DNA from: Galbibacter marinus
GTDB taxonomy: Bacteria; Bacteroidota; Bacteroidia; Flavobacteriales; Flavobacteriaceae
DNA: 64,000 nt
Assembly (NCBI RefSeq): GCF_000300875.1
Contig: NZ_AMSG01000003.1
Coordinates: 186,001 to 250,000 of the forward strand
Direction of reading: 5' to 3'
This document shows positions 10,094 through 18,694 of the stretch, one piece after another. The translations under genes and the position numbers were made by a program. The notes under the pieces are model-generated. The model did no database searches and had not been told where the DNA came from. It saw only the letters and a list, made by a program, of their open reading frames with translations. Numbering within the stretch: position 1 is the stretch's first letter; the number at the start of each line of letters is the position of its first letter.

Positions 10094-11068
10094 ATGAAGA
10101 AGTCAATCTACTTAATTGCTATCGCCCTGATCGCTCTTACACATGAGTTAAATGCACAGTACACGGAAGTTATCAATTCCAATCGTCCTGGTTCTTCCTA
10201 TAGTGCGTTTTCTGTAGGAAAAAATGTTTTTCAGATAGAAGGTGGTTTTTATTACGAACGCTGGGATCATTCTTGGCTAAGAACAAAATCCAACAGGTAC
10301 GCCATGGATATCGTTTTGCGTTATGGTTTTTTATTTGAACAACTTGAGCTGATCTATGACGGACAGTATACATTTGCAAAAGTTATCGAAAACACGGCTA
10401 TTAACCCACGAAAATACAATCAAAACGATTTTACCAAAAATACCATTGGACTCAAATATCTAATTTACGATCCATTTAAAGATCCAGAACGAAACAAACC
10501 TGATCTATACAGCTGGAAGGCTAACAATCACTTGCAGTGGAGAAATTTAATCCCAGCAGTAGCTATTTATGCAGGTGTTAATTTAAACTTTGGTGATAAT
10601 CCATTTTATCCTCAGCAAGAAAGCCTCACACCAAAAGTGATGTTGGCCACTCAACACCACCTCACCCCAAATTGGGTATTTGTCATGAATTTCGCCTATG
10701 ACCAATTCACCTCTGATGATCCGTTATATAGTTATGTATTGACACTCACACATGCACTTCGTGATCCTAGATACACTATATTTGTAGAACATCAAGGGTT
10801 TAAAAGTGACTACTATTCCGATGGAATCTTTAAAATGGGAGCGGCTCGTTTGTTTAACCAAGATTTTCAGTTAGACGCCTCTTTTGGAATTAATATAAAA
10901 GATACCCCAGCTCGCTTTTTTGGAGCAATTGGAGCTTCTTATCGCTTAGATTTTCATCAAGACCCGAAAAACAAATACAACAATTTCTCTGAAAAAGACA
11001 GAGAATTCATAAAGGATGCCAAGAAAAATAGAAAGAACAACAATCCTTTTGAAGAAATAGAAGATTGA
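10094..11068 (+). CDS. Outer-membrane beta-barrel protein (Phenol_MetA_deg-like)
   Basis: 324 residues. A signal peptide (cleavage near LNAQ) is followed by alternating hydrophobic/polar strands rich in Tyr, Phe and Trp. The opening NSNRPGSS motif and spacing resemble the Bacteroidota transporter family around the Phenol_MetA_deg domain. The C-terminal 35 residues are a charged Lys/Asn tail, not a typical barrel end. It ends 7 bases before the N-acyltransferase gene, so the two are probably co-transcribed, and a role in lipid export or outer-membrane placement is possible. Function is inferred only. Confidence 0.7.
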   Translation: MKKSIYLIAIALIALTHELNAQYTEVINSNRPGSSYSAFSVGKNVFQIEGGFYYERWDHSWLRTKSNRYAMDIVLRYGFLFEQLELIYDGQYTFAKVIENTAINPRKYNQNDFTKNTIGLKYLIYDPFKDPERNKPDLYSWKANNHLQWRNLIPAVAIYAGVNLNFGDNPFYPQQESLTPKVMLATQHHLTPNWVFVMNFAYDQFTSDDPLYSYVLTLTHALRDPRYTIFVEHQGFKSDYYSDGIFKMGAARLFNQDFQLDASFGINIKDTPARFFGAIGASYRLDFHQDPKNKYNNFSEKDREFIKDAKKNRKNNNPFEEIED

Positions 11069-11075
11069 TGCCTAT

Positions 11076-12197
11076 ATGATAGAGATTACAGAAATAAAAA
11101 CAAAGAAGCAATTAAAGGAGTTTATAAAATTTCCATTTAATTTATACAAATCCTCCGAAAATTGGGTTCCCCCTATTATTGGTGAGGAGCTCGATAATTT
11201 TGACAAATCTAAAAATCCTGCCTTTAATGATGCCGATGCTTGGTTTTTCCTCGCCTATCAAAATCAAAAAATCGTTGGTAGGGTGTGCGCTATCGTTAAC
11301 TGGGATGAGGTAAAAAAACAAGGCAACCGAAAGATGCGCTTTGGCTGGTTTGACCTTATTAACGATCAAAAGGTCTGCAATGCACTTCTGGATCAGGTAG
11401 TAAGTATCGCAAAAGAACATGAGCTTGAATACATCGAAGGGCCAGCAGGTTTTTCAAACATGGATAAGGCAGGTATGCTCCTAGAGGGTTTTGATCGAAT
11501 TGGAAGTATGCCGACCAATTACAATTATTCTTATTATCCAGAGTTGATAGAAAATTATGGATTTAAAAAAGAAGTTGATTGGAAGGAATACGAAATTATT
11601 ATGCCAGAGCAGGTACCTGATAAGGTTTCCAAGTTTGCTGGTTTACTTCTAAAAAAATACAACTTACGAGTCCTAGACCTTCCAAATACCAAGACACTTC
11701 TACCCTATGCTGAAAAGATATTTGATTTGATGAATAGGTCACACCAACATTTGGAATCCTTTACGCCGATTAAACCATATCAAGTAGAACATTATAAAAA
11801 CAAATATTTAAAATTCCTGGATCCTGATTTCGTGATCCTTATCGCTGATGAAAATGATGAATTAGTAGGTTTTTCTATAATAATGCCTTCTTTTTCAAAA
11901 GCACTTCAAAAGGCCAATGGGAAATTATTCCCTTTTGGATTTTATCATCTTTTAAAGGCTCAAAAATCTGGAGAGAAGGTGACACTCTTACTCATTGGAA
12001 TTGCCCCAGAATACATGCGCAAAGGATTAACGGCAATAATTTTTGACCAGACCTACAAGACCTTTGTCAAAAAAGGAACCCGAGTGATGGAAACCAATCC
12101 TGAACTAGAAACAAATAGTCAAGTACAAGCTTTATGGAAAGACTACAATCCACAACTTATTAAAAAGTGGCGGACCTACCGCAAGTATCTATCCTAG
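11076..12197 (+). CDS. GNAT-fold N-acyltransferase, bacterial ceramide synthase-like
   Basis: 373 residues. It starts with the family signature of a lysine-rich strand, then LYKSSENWVPP, and continues with a GNAT core (IVGRVCAIVN; EGPAGFSNMDKAGMLLEGFD; later LLIGIAPEYMRKGL). This is the YghO-like family, often misnamed GTP cyclohydrolase. From memory, the Caulobacter member bCerS N-acylates the sphingoid base. Here it faces an alpha-oxoamine synthase and an SDR, so N-acylation of a sphingoid or capnine base is the best guess. Co-transcribed with the preceding beta-barrel gene. Lipid class is unproven. Confidence 0.75.
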   Translation: MIEITEIKTKKQLKEFIKFPFNLYKSSENWVPPIIGEELDNFDKSKNPAFNDADAWFFLAYQNQKIVGRVCAIVNWDEVKKQGNRKMRFGWFDLINDQKVCNALLDQVVSIAKEHELEYIEGPAGFSNMDKAGMLLEGFDRIGSMPTNYNYSYYPELIENYGFKKEVDWKEYEIIMPEQVPDKVSKFAGLLLKKYNLRVLDLPNTKTLLPYAEKIFDLMNRSHQHLESFTPIKPYQVEHYKNKYLKFLDPDFVILIADENDELVGFSIIMPSFSKALQKANGKLFPFGFYHLLKAQKSGEKVTLLLIGIAPEYMRKGLTAIIFDQTYKTFVKKGTRVMETNPELETNSQVQALWKDYNPQLIKKWRTYRKYLS

Positions 12198-12281: not shown

Positions 12282-12317
12282 ATTATAACCAGTAGATAAT
12301 TTCTACAGAATATCTTT

Positions 12318-13580
12318 TTACTTATCCCCCATAGCGGCTTCAACAGCAGCAGAAAGGCGTTTATATGTACCATTTTCAAGGCGGTCTCTAATAGCAGAGA
12401 ATGCATCTAAAGTCAGTTGAATATCCTCTAGATCATGTGTCGCAGTTGGAATCATACGCAAAAGAATTAATCCTTTTGGTATTACTGGATACACTACAAT
12501 TGAACAGAAAATTCCATAATTTTCACGCAAGTCTTTCACAAGAGCCATAGCCTCAGGAATACTTCCGTTTAAGTATACTGGGGTTACACAACTTTGTGTA
12601 GTTCCAATATTAAACCCACGTTCCTTTAGGCCATTTTGAAGAGCATTTACATTTTCCCAAAGTTTTTCTTTGAGTTCAGGCATTGTCTTCATCATATGCA
12701 AGCGTTTCAATGCTCCTTTTACGTAAATCATTGGTAATGATTTAGCAAACATTTGAGATCGAAGGTTATATTTTAGATAGTCGATCACTTCTTTATCGCC
12801 CGCTAAAAACGCACCAATACCAGCCATAGACTTAGCAAAGGTTGCAAAATAAACGTCGATTTGATCTTGAACTCCTTGCTCCTCTCCTGTTCCTGCACCT
12901 GTTTTACCTAGTGTTCCAAAACCGTGAGCGTCATCGACCAAGAGTCTAAAGTTGTATTTTCCTTTAAGTGCAACGATTTCCTTTAAACGACCTTGCTCTC
13001 CACGCATTCCAAATACACCTTCAGAGATCACTAGGATTCCTCCTCCTGTTTGCTCTGCCATTTTAGTAGCACGTTCTAGGTTTTTCTCAAGGCTTTCCAT
13101 ATCATTGTGTTGATATGTAAAACGTTTACCCATGTGAAGTCGTACACCATCGATGATACAAGCATGTGAATCAACATCATAAACGATGATATCGTCCTTA
13201 GTTACTAATGCATCAATACAAGACACCATTCCTTGGTAACCAAAGTTCAATAAATACGCAGCTTGTTTATCAACAAATTCAGCGAGTTCATTTTGTAGCT
13301 GATCGTGCAAGTCAGTATGACCACTCATCATTCGTGCTCCCATAGGGTATGCAGCGCCATGCTGAGCAGCGGCCTGAGCATCTACCTTAAGTACCTCCGG
13401 ATGATTTGCCAACCCAAGGTAATCATTAATACTCCAGGTGATAACATCTTTTCCATTAAACTTCATTCTATTTGAGATATTTCCTTCCAATTTTGGAAAT
13501 ACGAAATATCCCTCAGCCTGAGAAGCCCATTTTCCTAATGGACCTTTATTCTCAATAATTCTATCAAATAAGTCTCTCAT
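12318..13580 (-). CDS. Alpha-oxoamine synthase: cysteate/serine acyltransferase candidate
   Basis: 420 residues, fold-type I PLP enzyme of the family of serine palmitoyltransferase, KBL and 8-amino-7-oxononanoate synthase. Visible residues: DSHAC with H139, DDAHG (D216, H219) and the PLP lysine K250 in TFAKSMAG. The N-terminus (LGKWASQAEGYFVFPK) belongs to a flavobacterial clade that, from recall, differs from Bacteroides-type serine palmitoyltransferase and is linked to cysteate fatty acyltransferase, which makes 3-ketocapnine. Next to a reductase and a cysteine-synthase-like gene, the cysteate reaction is favoured, but serine palmitoyltransferase cannot be excluded. It has its own predicted promoter at 13637. 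Confidence 0.8.
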   Translation of the reverse strand: MRDLFDRIIENKGPLGKWASQAEGYFVFPKLEGNISNRMKFNGKDVITWSINDYLGLANHPEVLKVDAQAAAQHGAAYPMGARMMSGHTDLHDQLQNELAEFVDKQAAYLLNFGYQGMVSCIDALVTKDDIIVYDVDSHACIIDGVRLHMGKRFTYQHNDMESLEKNLERATKMAEQTGGGILVISEGVFGMRGEQGRLKEIVALKGKYNFRLLVDDAHGFGTLGKTGAGTGEEQGVQDQIDVYFATFAKSMAGIGAFLAGDKEVIDYLKYNLRSQMFAKSLPMIYVKGALKRLHMMKTMPELKEKLWENVNALQNGLKERGFNIGTTQSCVTPVYLNGSIPEAMALVKDLRENYGIFCSIVVYPVIPKGLILLRMIPTATHDLEDIQLTLDAFSAIRDRLENGTYKRLSAAVEAAMGDK

Positions 13581-13636
13581 GTAAATGGAGGTTTTCTATT
13601 CTTTTTAATTGTATTATGTGTTTACTCAACAGAGGG

Positions 13637-13644
13637 CAAAAGTA
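13637..13644 (-). promoter_or_regulatory. Predicted -7 element (TACTTTTG on minus)
   Basis: CAAAAGTA on plus fits TAnnTTTG on minus, 57 bases before the ATG at 13580, in the 93-base gap after the SDR gene. It suggests the synthase can be transcribed independently. Confidence 0.5.
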
Positions 13645-13673
13645 ACTAAAATTAAGGTCTTTTCATAACATAT

Positions 13674-14534
13674 TTACGAATCTTGTAAAAGATGGCGAAA
13701 TTGTTTTTGGAACATCTTATCTAAGAATTTATCGGGGAAGACATGTATGGCCAACCAAAACAGCCATTTTTTCGGAGCAACTAAATATCTTGTTTTGTTT
13801 TTTTTACCCTCTGCAATGTCATAAATTAAATTAGCTACAATACTGGCATCCAATGCCGCACCTTCCATTCCTTGTACAGCTTTATCCATTTTCGCGTAGA
13901 TTCGCTCATATGGAGTGTCTTTATATTTGTTAATCTGCTCAGCTGATTCTGCCTTTGCTTTATTCCATATTTCAGACTGTATTGGTCCTGGTTCAATGAT
14001 GGTCACGCCAATTCCAAAATCCAACAATTCTCTTCTAAATCCATCAGAAATCGCTTCCACAGCATGCTTGGAAGCCGCATAAGGAGCCATAAAGGGTCGG
14101 GTCACACGACCAGCTCCACTGCTGATATTTATCATTCTTCCCTTGGGAAGATCATTGTCAAACCCAAGAAGCGGCAAAAATGTCTGGGACACCCGTACTA
14201 GACCTAACACATTAATATCAAGCTGTTGTGAGAATTCTTCTAAGGCGATATAAGCCATAGGACCATTTACAGAAACTCCAGCATTATTCACAAGGCAATC
14301 CAATGGTTTATCTCCTAAAATAGCCTTGACCTCTAGGTAGGAAGCTTGAATAGCTTTTAAATCAGCAACATCGAAAATCAGTGGATAGAAGTTAGCACCT
14401 AATTCCTCCTGAAGCCGATCAGCATCTGCTTGTTTTCTGACACTTCCGAAAACCATATATCCTCGGCTCAAAAATAAGTTCGCGGTGCTCCATCCTATTC
14501 CAGAGGACACCCCAGTGATCATTATACTTTTCAT
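13674..14534 (-). CDS. Short-chain dehydrogenase/reductase, 3-keto-base reductase candidate
   Basis: 286 residues, classical SDR. Cofactor motif TGVSSGIG at 7-14, NNAG at 83-86, catalytic S139, Y152 and K156 (YAASK), then the PGP motif after the active site. The C-terminal hydrophobic stretch (WLFWLAIHVFP) could associate with membrane, as in ceramide-type reductases. Beside an alpha-oxoamine synthase it probably reduces the 3-keto group of the condensation product (3-ketocapnine or 3-ketosphinganine) with NADPH. It starts 30 bases after the oxygenase stop, with a terminator between. Confidence 0.8.
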   Translation of the reverse strand: MKSIMITGVSSGIGWSTANLFLSRGYMVFGSVRKQADADRLQEELGANFYPLIFDVADLKAIQASYLEVKAILGDKPLDCLVNNAGVSVNGPMAYIALEEFSQQLDINVLGLVRVSQTFLPLLGFDNDLPKGRMINISSGAGRVTRPFMAPYAASKHAVEAISDGFRRELLDFGIGVTIIEPGPIQSEIWNKAKAESAEQINKYKDTPYERIYAKMDKAVQGMEGAALDASIVANLIYDIAEGKKNKTRYLVAPKKWLFWLAIHVFPDKFLDKMFQKQFRHLLQDS

Positions 14535-14550
14535 AGGTATTTTTATCTTT

Positions 14551-14577
14551 AAAAAAAGGGCGCTTTATCCAACGCCC
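14551..14577 (-). terminator. Intra-operon terminator/attenuator
   Basis: On minus, GGGCG (14577-14573), a 10-base loop and CGCCC (14562-14558) are followed by seven T. The hairpin includes the last codons and the stop of the oxygenase gene and precedes the SDR ATG by about 17 bases, so read-through must supply the SDR unless it has an internal promoter. Confidence 0.75.
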
Positions 14578-15428
14578 AAATTCATCATTGCCCTTTGGGC
14601 ATTTTGTATCGCTTTATTATCCTTATATCTTTTCCAACGCTGGCCAGCTAAATAATTCATTCCACTATCAAATGCAAAGAGTCGCAATAGATTCGAGGCT
14701 CCTTGTACTTTTGTTTTTATGGAATCATTAGCGCGCAAAGCTAATGAAAATCCACCTTTAGAATAATATACATAATGCCACCATAGCTTAGGTATAAACA
14801 AGGTTTCTCCATGTTCGATAACTGCTTTAAAACCTTTAGCATGTTTAAAGGCTGGGTACCGCTCTAAATCGGGATCTAACACATCCACATGAGAATGGTT
14901 AGTAAAGGGCAATTTGTATAGAAATTCAGATTGATCAGGTGGATATAGATAGACTACTTTTTGCGTTTGAAAATGTGATAAAAACACATGAGAGCAGTCA
15001 ATATCGTAATGAAGATTAAGAGCAGAACCTTGTCCTCCAAAAAACATCAATGCAAATTTCATAAAACCATCCATAATCGTTGGCGTTTTATAGTCATTTG
15101 CTAATTCAGGAGCACGTTTCATAATTTGAAAATTATGGAATCTTAGACTCGTTGGCTTGTGCTGGATTATATCTAAATAATCTCCAAACCTTTTATAAGT
15201 AGTGGGCTTCATATAGCCATTACCAGGGTCATGATAAGAATCATCATACATTGGAATTTCCCATTCGCCGTATTGCTTCCTGAAAAAATCAAAAGTCCAT
15301 TTTTTCCTAGCAAGCCAGTTTTTTGTCAAATCTTTAAAAATTACAGGTCTCTGGGCAGAAAGATACTGTTCTTTAAATTCCTCTTTGGTGATCCCCTCAA
15401 CTTTATCAACCAAATTGAAATCCGACAT
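14565..15428 (-). CDS. Cupin-8/JmjC-like Fe(II)/2-oxoglutarate oxygenase
   Basis: 287 residues. The double-stranded beta-helix shows an iron triad: H140 and D142 in LHYDID and H218 in LWWHYVYY. K157 lies in the strand that binds 2-oxoglutarate in FIH-type enzymes. Spacing and the FIPKLWWH motif fit the cupin_8 family. It lies 15 bases after the cysteine-synthase-like gene and before the SDR, inside the lipid operon. A hydroxylase acting on the acyl chain or base of a sulfonolipid is attractive but unproven; protein hydroxylation is the alternative. The C-terminal about 50 residues are basic and helical. Confidence 0.78.
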   Translation of the reverse strand: MSDFNLVDKVEGITKEEFKEQYLSAQRPVIFKDLTKNWLARKKWTFDFFRKQYGEWEIPMYDDSYHDPGNGYMKPTTYKRFGDYLDIIQHKPTSLRFHNFQIMKRAPELANDYKTPTIMDGFMKFALMFFGGQGSALNLHYDIDCSHVFLSHFQTQKVVYLYPPDQSEFLYKLPFTNHSHVDVLDPDLERYPAFKHAKGFKAVIEHGETLFIPKLWWHYVYYSKGGFSLALRANDSIKTKVQGASNLLRLFAFDSGMNYLAGQRWKRYKDNKAIQNAQRAMMNLGVG

Positions 15429-15443
15429 GTTTTAAATCTTGCT

Positions 15444-16484
15444 TTATTTGATATACTCAATTTTTTGAGTTGCTTCTGTATTGACAGAATCAAAGAATCC
15501 TTGATCCCGCATCCATTCATCGCTATATATTTTACTCATATAACGTGATCCGTGGTCTGGGAATATCATTATAACATTACTATTCACGTCAAACTCACCT
15601 AGTTCAGCCAACTGTTTGGCAGCTTGAAATGCAGCTCCACTAGTGTAGCCTATAAAGCAACCTTCAGTTTTAGATATCATTCTAGCAGTATGGGCACTTT
15701 CTTCATCTGTCACTTTGATAAATTCATCTATGACCTCAAAATCTGTTGCACCAGGTATTAGGTTTTTTCCTAAACCTTCAATTCTATAAGGGTATATTTC
15801 GTTAGAGTCAAATTCACGAGTTTCGTGATATTTTTTCAAAACAGATCCGTAGGCATCCACCCCAATCACTTTTATATTAGGATTCATTTCTTTTAAAAAT
15901 CGGCCTGTTCCAGATATTGTACCTCCAGTTCCGCTGCAGGCAATAAGGTGTGTAATTTGTCCGTTAGTTTGTTCCCATATCTCAGGACCAGTTGTCCTGT
16001 AATGAGCCTCCATGTTGAGTTGGTTAAAATACTGGTTAATATATACCGAACCCTTCATTTCTTCATGCATTCGTTTAGCGACTTGGTAGTATGATCTAGG
16101 ATCGTCCGCACTTACATGTGCGGGACATACATAAACCTTTGCCCCCATGGCACGCAGCATGTCAATCTTATCAGGTGAAGATTTTGAACTTACTGCCAAA
16201 ATGCAGTCGTAACCTTTGATTACACTTACCATAGCAATACTAAATCCCGTATTACCAGAAGTCGTTTCTATAATGGTGTCACCTGGTTTTAAAATCCCTT
16301 TACGCTCAGCCTCTTCAATAATATGTAACGCTATCCTATCTTTACTAGAATGTCCTGGATTAAAAGCTTCGACTTTAGCGTAGAAGTTTCCTATAAGATT
16401 TTGGGTTATTTTACTTAGTTTTAGTAAGGGTGTATTACCTATTAAATCTAAAACATTATCGTAAGCATTTATCTTTTGTTTCAT
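15444..16484 (-). CDS. Cysteine-synthase-family PLP enzyme, cysteate synthase candidate
   Basis: 346 residues, fold-type II PLP enzyme. PLP lysine K48 in GHSSKDR (usually SxKDR), phosphate loop TSGNTG at 75-80 and the GTGGTISG loop after the midpoint. The C-terminal half resembles the catalytic core of cystathionine beta-synthase without the regulatory CBS pair. Ordinary cysteine synthesis is possible, but first position in an operon with oxygenase, SDR and alpha-oxoamine synthase favours production of cysteate from an activated serine and sulfite. A TAAATTTG box lies 48 bases upstream of its ATG. Confidence 0.75.
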
Positions 16485-16531
16485 AGAAATTTGGTTAGAT
16501 ACAAAATAGATTTGAATTCCTCCAAACCTTG

Positions 16532-16539
16532 CAAATTTA
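16532..16539 (-). promoter_or_regulatory. Predicted -7 element (TAAATTTG on minus)
   Basis: CAAATTTA on plus is an exact TAnnTTTG match on minus between the oligopeptidase stop and the cysteine-synthase-like ATG at 16484. It probably starts the lipid operon. No -33 TTG is seen at the right distance. Confidence 0.55.
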
Positions 16540-16555
16540 AAGACTTTTTTTAAAA

Positions 16556-18694
16556 CTATTGATTAATTCCTTCTAAATCTAAAACAAAGGCATATTCTTG
16601 TGCAACCTCTTTCAAAGCTTCAAAACGTCCCGAAGCGCCGCCATGGCCTGCATCCATATTGGTTTGGAAAAGTAATATTTGTTCTCCTTTTTTAACACTT
16701 CTTAACTTTGCTACCCATTTAGCAGGTTCCCAATACTGCACCTGAGAATCGTGAAATCCTGTGGTGACAAGTAAATTTGGATACTCTTTGGATTCTACAT
16801 TATCATAGGGTGAATAGGACTTCATATAATTGTAATACTCCTTCTTATTTGGATTCCCCCACTCATCGTATTCTCCTGTTGTCAGTGGAATAGATTCATC
16901 TAGCATGGTCGTTAAAACATCTACAAAAGGGACAGCAGCTATTACCCCATTATATAACTCAGGCGCTAGGTTTATCACTGCACCCATAAGTAAACCACCT
17001 GCAGATCCTCCCATAGCATACATATGCTCTTTGGTAGTATAGCCTTGCTGGATTAAGAATTCTGTACAGTTGATGAAGTCCGTAAAAGTGTTCACCTTTT
17101 CTAAAAGTTTTCCATTTTCATACCACTGTCTTCCTAAGTATTCTCCACCTCGAATATGAGCAATGGCATAGATAAATCCCCTATCGAGTAGCGAAAGTCT
17201 TACTGAGGAGAAATAAGGATCTATAGTAGCTCCGTAGGATCCGTATCCATAAAGTAATAGCGGATTCTTACCATTGTTTTTCATGTCTTTTCTATATACA
17301 AGGGAAATAGGGATCTTAGTTCCATCAGTAGCCTTAGCCCATACTCTTTCAGAGGCATAATTATCCTTATTAAAAGTACCTCCTAACACCTGTTGCTCTT
17401 TTTTGACTTTTCTTTCTTTGGTCTTCATATTAAAGTCAATTGTACTTGCTGGTGTTGTTAAAGCATTGTACACAAAACGAAGTGTGTCTGTGTCAAACTC
17501 CAAATTAGTTGAAGTAAACACCGTATAGGTCTCATTGTCGAATGGGATATAATAAGAATCCGTATTATCCCATCGCTGAATCATGATCTTATTTAATCCC
17601 TCAGATCGTTCACTAACCACAAGGTAATCTTTGAAAATATCCACATCCTCCAATAACACTTCAGGGCGGTGTGCAATAACTTCCTGCCAATTTTCTTTTG
17701 AGGTATTATCCACAGAAGTTTTCATGAGTTTAAAATTGGTCGCCTGATCTGCATTGGTGAGAATGTAAAAGGTATCCTCATAATGAGAAATACTGTATTC
17801 CAATCCTCGTATTCTAGGTTGAAATACCTTTGGCGGTTGTTCAGGATGATCGGCATCGATAAAACTAAATTCTGAAGTAAGGGTACTCCCAGATCCAAAG
17901 ACAATATACTTTTGCGACTTGGTTTTATAGACAAAAGCTCTAAAGGTTTCATCGGGCTCATGATAAACCAATTGATCCTCTGACTGTAAGTTTTGAGTAT
18001 CAAACTCATGTTTAAAAATTTTATCAGAGCGTAGGGTTTGCTTATCTTTTCTGGTATAAAAAAATGTTTTATTGTCATTTGCCCATGTGCTAGACCCAGT
18101 GGTGTTTTCAATTCGCAATGGATATATCTGCCCTGTTTCTAAATTTTTAACCTGCAAGACGTATTCTCTCCTACTTACAGTATCTACACCGAATACCGCC
18201 AGGGTATTATCAGGACTTATACTAATACCATTTAAATTAAAGTACGTATGTCCCTTTGCCATTTCATTACAATCAAATAAAACTTCTTGCTCGGCACCTT
18301 CCTCGTCCTTTTTTCTAAGATAGATGGGGTAATCTTTACCCGTTTCATACTTGGTAGAGTACCAATAACCGTTATATTTATATGGAACAGAAGAATCATC
18401 CTCCTTTATCCTTGATTTCATTTCTTTAAAAAGCGACTCCTTAAATTCATCTGTGTGCGCGGTCATTTTATTGTAGTAGTCATTCTCACGCTCTAAGTAG
18501 TCAACTACCTCAGGGTTCTCTCTTTCATTAAGCCAAAAGTAGTCATCCACTCTGATATCACCATGTTTCTCTAAAATCACTTCTTTTTTATCCGCAACTG
18601 GTGGGGTAATATTTTTCATAGTCTTTTGTTGTTTCTCTTTACAGGAACTCACAAAAATAAGGCTTACCATAAGAATAAAAGTACTGTACCGCAT
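16556..18694 (-). CDS. ptrB: Oligopeptidase B-like S9 peptidase, lipoprotein
   Basis: 712 residues, prolyl oligopeptidase family. Residues 1-18 are a lipoprotein signal with lipobox ending at C18, so it is likely tethered in the periplasm. A seven-bladed propeller spans about 80-440, then the hydrolase domain with GGSAGG (S564), FHDSQV (D649) and DAGHGG (H684) as the triad. The [14 protein letters not shown] segment near residue 60 is typical of S9A oligopeptidase B. It cleaves short peptides, usually after basic residues. It is upstream of the lipid operon but separated by 71 bases and a promoter. Confidence 0.9.

Follow-up and report, generated by a model that had tools for sequence, protein, structure and literature searches.

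What does an oxygenase gene do in an operon for a lipid whose described synthesis has no oxygenase step? The question is raised by a 64,000-nucleotide stretch of the Galbibacter marinus genome (contig NZ_AMSG01000003.1), here termed the window, in which a Cupin_8 gene, termed cupin8, lies among genes of sulfonolipid synthesis. Gliding, inflammation and the development of choanoflagellates have all been connected with sulfonolipids (PMC11211663, in excerpt). As set out in the excerpted text of PMC10191378, the capnine pathway consists of CapA, CapB and CapC followed by N-acylation, with no oxygenase step, which bears out the statement of an earlier note on this DNA that no described step needs such an enzyme. 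The answer put forward here is that cupin8 may encode a lineage-restricted, optional tailoring hydroxylase of capnine or sulfonolipid, a reading held at about even confidence. The observations that support it are the operon, the catalytic residues, selection on the gene, its repeated linkage with the pathway and its loss where the neighbouring short-chain dehydrogenase/reductase (SDR) gene is kept.

The four genes are arranged on the minus strand in the order capA, cupin8, SDR, capB, with gaps of 15, 30 and 93 bases (Table 1). The earlier note had placed the oxygenase gene 15 bases after a candidate cysteate synthase gene in a lipid operon. The spacing is as described, the candidate can be upgraded in that CapA scores above the NCBI curated equivalog cut-off for cysteate synthase, and the lipid operon holds, the capB product having its match in a PDB entry named 'Cysteate-C-fatty acyltransferase'. 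Against NCBIfam models, CapB gave no match above any model's cut-off. Both capA and capB match the described capnine pathway (NF053679; PDB 28eh; PMC10191378, in excerpt). They adjoin in 27 loci of the family without the cassette, whereas here cupin8 and the SDR gene stand between them. A search of the operon strand from 12300 to 17200 for the Bacteroidota -33/-7 promoter pattern found no exact match. At 10094-12197 of the window, capB is faced by two genes, one of the GNAT family and one outer-membrane-like (Phenol_MetA_deg); in many flavobacterial loci examined, the former has also stayed next to the cap genes.

Table 1. Genes of the operon and codons of interest in cupin8 (positions in the window)
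Feature	Position	Strand	Basis
capA, cysteate synthase	15444..16484	-	NF053679, 647.6 bits (cut-off 600)
cupin8, Cupin_8/JmjC-type Fe(II)/2-oxoglutarate oxygenase, 287 aa	14565..15428	-	ORF; Pfam PF13621; JMJD5 by sequence and fold
SDR, probable 3-ketocapnine reductase, CapC-like role	13674..14534	-	Pfam adh_short; KdsR NF049977, 135 bits
capB, cysteate C-fatty acyltransferase	12318..13580	-	748 bits to PDB 28eh
H98-N99-F100-Q101 codons of cupin8	15126..15137	-	H98, N99 and Q101 restricted to operon-linked clade
H140 codon, first iron ligand	15009..15011	-	Sequence; 96/96 homologues; aligned with JMJD5 His
D142 codon, second iron ligand	15003..15005	-	Sequence; 96/96 homologues
K157 codon	14958..14960	-	Aligned with JMJD5 lysine; 96/96 homologues
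H218 codon, third iron ligand	14775..14777	-	Sequence; 96/96 homologues

The cupin8 reading frame is intact and opens with ATG. The only Pfam family named for it is Cupin_8, which it matches with 104.4 bits (cut-off 27.4), and an NCBIfam search at E 0.001 returned zero family matches. Human JMJD5 (PDB 3uyj, 6f4n), a JmjC hydroxylase, matches by sequence (4.4e-24), and a Foldseek comparison of the cupin8 structure model with JMJD5 (8.7e-16; TM 0.63 by query length) points to the same double-stranded beta-helix fold, at moderate model confidence. Mean pLDDT of the model is 64 and falls below 50 at residues 133-145, so that the substrate pocket is not readable from it. H140, D142, H218 and K157 are identical in all 96 aligned homologues, these being the distinct open reading frames of at least 150 amino acids from the fetched loci, with two decayed copies excluded. 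The lysine of JMJD5 with which K157 aligns is taken by us to be the 2-oxoglutarate binder. Both the iron triad and the lysine position are where the earlier note had seen them, and by its sequence cupin8 is a genuine Fe(II)/2-oxoglutarate oxygenase gene.

Among proteins of known structure, those that come closest in sequence and in fold are JMJD5, TYW5, JMJD7 and FIH, whose substrates are protein or tRNA. JMJD5, at 26-29% identity among the matches listed, shares the fold, iron triad and lysine with cupin8 but acts on proteins, whereas the context of cupin8 is lipid synthesis. Human TYW5 (PDB 3al5, 3al6), a tRNA hydroxylase, shares the Cupin_8/JmjC fold at 19-22% identity. These relatives speak against the tailoring reading. 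Because they modify protein or tRNA, some weight goes to a macromolecular substrate: cupin8 might encode a JMJD5-like protein or tRNA hydroxylase, acting for example on CapA, CapB or a ribosomal protein, with its place in the operon doing no more than coupling its expression to lipid synthesis. This we regard as rather unlikely, for reasons of linkage and phylogeny given below.

In the proposed scheme, CapA makes cysteate, from which CapB forms 3-ketocapnine by condensation with a fatty acyl group. The ketone would probably be reduced by the SDR, which in Galbibacter would take the place of the usual reductase. After this reduction, or on an intermediate, the cupin8 enzyme would act, with O2 and 2-oxoglutarate, to add one hydroxyl to the capnine base or to the amide-linked acyl chain. 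The base is slightly favoured on two grounds: the shared occurrence of cupin8 and the SDR gene, and an undiminished share of C15:0 2-OH in a species in which cupin8 has probably decayed. We infer both the lipid as substrate and the position of the hydroxyl.

OlsD, the ornithine lipid hydroxylase of Burkholderia cenocepacia, offers a parallel in role; it acts on another lipid and belongs to another fold family than cupin8. The olsD gene encodes a dioxygenase that hydroxylates the amide-linked acyl group of this aminolipid (PMC4484230, in excerpt), as is proposed for cupin8. Hydroxylated sulfonolipids are already known as products, a point absent from the earlier note. RIF-1 of Algoriphagus machipongonensis has a 3,5-dihydroxy base and a 2-hydroxy acyl group, and differs from other known capnoids by these extra hydroxyls (PMC3463246, in excerpt); the likeness to the proposed product is by product only. 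With hydroxylated sulfonolipids known and olsD as precedent, a lipid hydroxyl is the simplest job for an operon-bound oxygenase. No enzyme was found named for the RIF-1 hydroxyls in the excerpts consulted, and a search of open-licence full texts yielded, among the records listed and the excerpts consulted, no gene for sulfonolipid hydroxylation and nothing relevant that links a cupin or hydroxylase with sulfonolipids. To our knowledge, no earlier JmjC/Cupin_8 oxygenase has a membrane-lipid substrate. We tentatively suggest, at somewhat less than even confidence, that cupin8 could be the first, an optional enzyme acting on the capnine base or the N-acyl chain in company with a non-orthologous 3-ketocapnine reductase, and a candidate for RIF-1-type hydroxylation. 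If true, JmjC chemistry would be extended from proteins and tRNA to membrane lipids.

The synteny survey proposed in the earlier note gave a divided result: the gene order recurs in two families, but it is not general and has decayed twice. The order capA-cupin8-SDR-capB is intact in 10 genomes. Six are of Galbibacter/Joostella, namely the window genome, G004, G. pacificus (L003), G. orientalis (L004), Joostella atrarenae (L005) and G. mesophilus (L006); three are of Robertkochia (L007-L009). The tenth, G033, belongs to another family of the same order and is the sole genome of that family in the sample. In G033 the genes overlap at each junction (4, 4 and 8 bases), the outer neighbours differ from those in the window, and the operon proteins are 51-67% identical to the window's.

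CapB is present in 146 of the 149 family genomes drawn. Among the best 30 of these 146 capB loci, two have the four-gene order (L038, L039) and one (L045, of genome G097) has the SDR gene and a cupin8 remnant. The remaining 27 have capA 109-399 bases from capB, a distance too short for the 860-base cupin8, and no SDR gene in between. A general synteny of cupin8 with the cap genes across flavobacteria is rejected on the basis of these 27 loci and of the following count over the whole draw. A profile of operonic cupin8 detected a full-length operonic member in two of the 149 family genomes (the window genome and G004), both of the window's genus; matches were found in 108 genomes, and those other than in these two were paralogues at 215-266 bits and the G097 fragment. 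The other 28 loci fetched from this draw had no capA or capB within 1.5 kb flanks. A draw of 395 genomes from the order gave six that pass 1e-82, two operonic (the window genome and G033) and four unlinked. From the phylum, 33 of 395 genomes drawn pass 1e-70, and in the 30 of these loci that were fetched, cap genes were found in the flanks only at the window's own. Accordingly, among the genomes searched, the order that contains cupin8 is restricted to Galbibacter/Joostella/Robertkochia and one distant genome. The tailoring step suggested in the earlier note is a reasonable reading, though of smaller reach than its wording implies. That most flavobacteria examined have cap genes without cupin8 counts against a tailoring role; a protein or tRNA hydroxylase is in turn disfavoured by the close association, repeated in two families, with precisely the genes of capnine synthesis.

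Several routes of spread were considered. Viral contigs gave zero relatives, in a search by two short patterns only, and a phage-borne cassette was rejected. So was a plasmid-borne one, the 15 listed of 29 plasmid records being at 24-30% identity and none from Bacteroidota. Recent transfer of the whole operon is not favoured: in a quick CapB tree, whose inner nodes are weakly supported and whose branches are long, the Galbibacter and Robertkochia proteins fall inside Flavobacteriaceae and that of G033 outside.

The SDR itself is below the cut-off of 400 bits for the KdsR profile (Table 1). The proven 3-ketocapnine reductases of C. gleum and A. finegoldii are encoded by genes that do not adjoin cfat (PMC11211663, in excerpt). 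KdsR-like matches of 245-278 bits are found in nine of nine control flavobacteria without the cassette, in G053 and G097, and in all three Robertkochia; none of the KdsR-like matches exceeds the model cut-off. No match of this strength is present in any of the seven genomes of the window's genus (G000-G006), where the best scores are 145-195 bits. All seven keep the operon SDR, which in G002, G004 and G006 is itself the best KdsR match. G033 has a KdsR-like match of 212 bits besides its SDR. The profile is unspecific, with matches at 1e-25 in 13 of 14 control genomes and at 1e-38 in six of 14, none over the cut-off; what carries the replacement argument is thus the difference in score, 245-278 bits as opposed to 195 bits or less. 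Because a strong KdsR-like reductase is missing in all seven genomes, the SDR is read as probably the 3-ketocapnine reductase in Galbibacter, where it is probably a newcomer and a non-orthologous replacement of CapC.

The cupin8 gene has decayed in G001 and G097, in both of which the SDR gene and capB are open. In G001, a member of the window's genus, 223 bases lie between capA and the SDR gene. They hold a trace of cupin8 residues 143-161, with 10/19 positions identical and E 4e-4, the search space being very small. Another possible trace, of residues 148-175 in another frame, has E 0.026, barely better than a chance antisense match at 0.045. Further matches to cupin8 in G001 are paralogues only, at 34-36%. 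What is left in G097 codes for residues 174-260 only and is 55% identical. Having decayed twice while the SDR gene, capA and capB stay, cupin8 is an optional extra that is dispensable. A tailoring step would be expected to show loss with the SDR kept, a core step would not. Linkage of the gene to the pathway, combined with its loss in two relatives, opens the question of sulfonolipid hydroxylation to direct testing.

The double decay fits an accessory modification and equally a passenger gene, that is, a cupin8 with an unrelated job that came along with the SDR gene as the useful member of an acquired pair. Loss of cupin8 with the SDR kept in G001 and G097 would be as expected of a passenger, and so would the finding that, among the genomes compared, all those without the usual reductase have the SDR. 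However, dN/dS of cupin8 is 0.035-0.13 in nine of ten pairs from five Galbibacter/Joostella sequences, values that are rough as dS is high (0.6-3.4) and one pair is saturated; for capA and capB it is 0.013-0.036. The gene is evidently under purifying selection, it has the full catalytic residues, and the pair has survived to the distance of G033 (53% identity), all of which make a passenger improbable. Loss of cupin8 while capA and capB stay also bears on another alternative, in which the substrate is not a lipid but a small water-soluble intermediate or head group, such as cysteate or another amino acid. 2-Oxoglutarate oxygenases commonly hydroxylate free amino acids, and cupin8 comes immediately after capA in each of the 10 intact operons. 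Such a substrate would require CapB to take an altered amino acid, yet CapB is not unusual, being 92-94% identical within the genus group and 86-89% identical to the 27 family loci without the cassette. With the loss counted too, a small-molecule substrate has only a slim chance.

The phylogeny of cupin8 returns to the question of a lipid or a macromolecule as substrate. A tree was made from 45 of the 96 rows, namely the 10 operonic, 10 labelled orphan and 25 hand-picked of 76 others, with decayed copies excluded. The 10 operonic proteins form one clade (support 99/98) within a wider clade A (100/99), which adds eight unlinked homologues of other families, 39-54% identical, the number being eight because the orphans of G347 and G214 fell outside. 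Clade A stands apart from the common flavobacterial paralogues. The unlinked homologues are 38-54% identical to cupin8 and none adjoins capA or capB, a point against the tailoring reading. All 10 genomes with an unlinked orphan homologue (eight of clade A, with G347 and G214) carry capB; of 24 genomes compared, one lacks it, namely G027 (76% complete, with a paralogue only). As capB is near-universal in the family, co-occurrence of cupin8 with capB says little.

H98, N99 and Q101 are present in 10 of 10 operonic proteins, in none of the eight unlinked clade A members and in none of the 78 others; position 98 is F in the 86 non-operonic rows. These three and A126 are, among others, private to the operonic clade, and the private residues adjoin the invariant R96, ahead of the H-x-D motif. 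Such changes argue against a protein or tRNA hydroxylase. A sign in its favour is that the homologues of G320 and G229 (clade A; L141, L142) and of G347 and G214 (outside it; L143, L144) lie beside genes for ribosomal L13, S9, S2 and EF-Ts, identities that are Pfam-backed for G320 and, for EF-Ts only, for G347. Against this, no ribosomal neighbourhood was found around the homologues of G351, G324, G634, G827, G857 and G869.

If cupin8 acts on the lipid, published fatty-acid profiles may bear on which part. One specific version is hydroxylation at C-3 of the amide-linked iso-C17 acyl group, a role like that of OlsD but in another fold. It counts against this version that 3-hydroxyacyl groups are as a rule supplied by fatty acid synthesis. 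G001, with its decayed cupin8, is probably G. kalidii EGI 63066. The excerpted Table 3 of PMC13166967 lists iso-C17:0 3-OH as undetected for G. kalidii, as opposed to 21.38% in G. mesophilus, 18.9% in G. pacificus, 15.7% in G. marinus and 13.3% in G. orientalis; of the strains tabulated, just the first two were measured side by side. The gene is intact in G. mesophilus, G. pacificus and G. orientalis, and G. marinus is the window species. For Robertkochia, another genus in which cupin8 occurs, two members are given with 29.5 and 15.5% of this acid (PMC7386787, in excerpt). However, excerpts of other papers call it characteristic of Bacteroidetes (PMC5167729) and give 17-28% in Luteirhabdus, Marinirhabdus, Marixanthomonas and G. 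mesophilus (PMC8590676). Since operonic cupin8 is rare in the draws, iso-C17:0 3-OH cannot in general depend on it. With a single loss as its basis, the contrast between G. kalidii and its relatives is suggestive but confounded, a lead only, and a C-3 acyl hydroxylase is very improbable. The same table gives C15:0 2-OH as 1.83 in G. kalidii, 1.2 in G. mesophilus, none in G. pacificus, 1.0 in G. marinus and trace in G. orientalis; it is thus not lower in the probable G001 species, contrary to 2-hydroxylation of that acyl chain by the tailoring enzyme proposed here.

Other Cupin_8 genes are found in these genomes. A paralogue in G001 (L129 6301-7185; L242; G001:C1), 35-36% identical to cupin8, lies in a run with genes for an MMPL/acyltransferase protein, an FAD oxidoreductase, an AAT-family acyltransferase and an AMP-binding enzyme (by Pfam), downstream of three open reading frames with ketosynthase domains, in a polyene/flexirubin-like cluster. 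The Cupin_8 family therefore occurs in operons for lipid-like products. This cluster may be the pigment cluster of G. kalidii, since that is the sole flexirubin-positive species in the table (PMC13166967, in excerpt). A run judged by eye to be similar surrounds a Cupin_8 paralogue in G107 (L134). Besides cupin8, the window genome encodes another Cupin_8 protein (L002/L130; G000:C1:76044-76877), with 35% identity, next to a biotin-synthase-like gene (Radical_SAM and BATS). Tandem pairs of Cupin_8 genes, approximately 37-40% identical to the window's, are found in genus g186 at all five loci examined (L112-L116).
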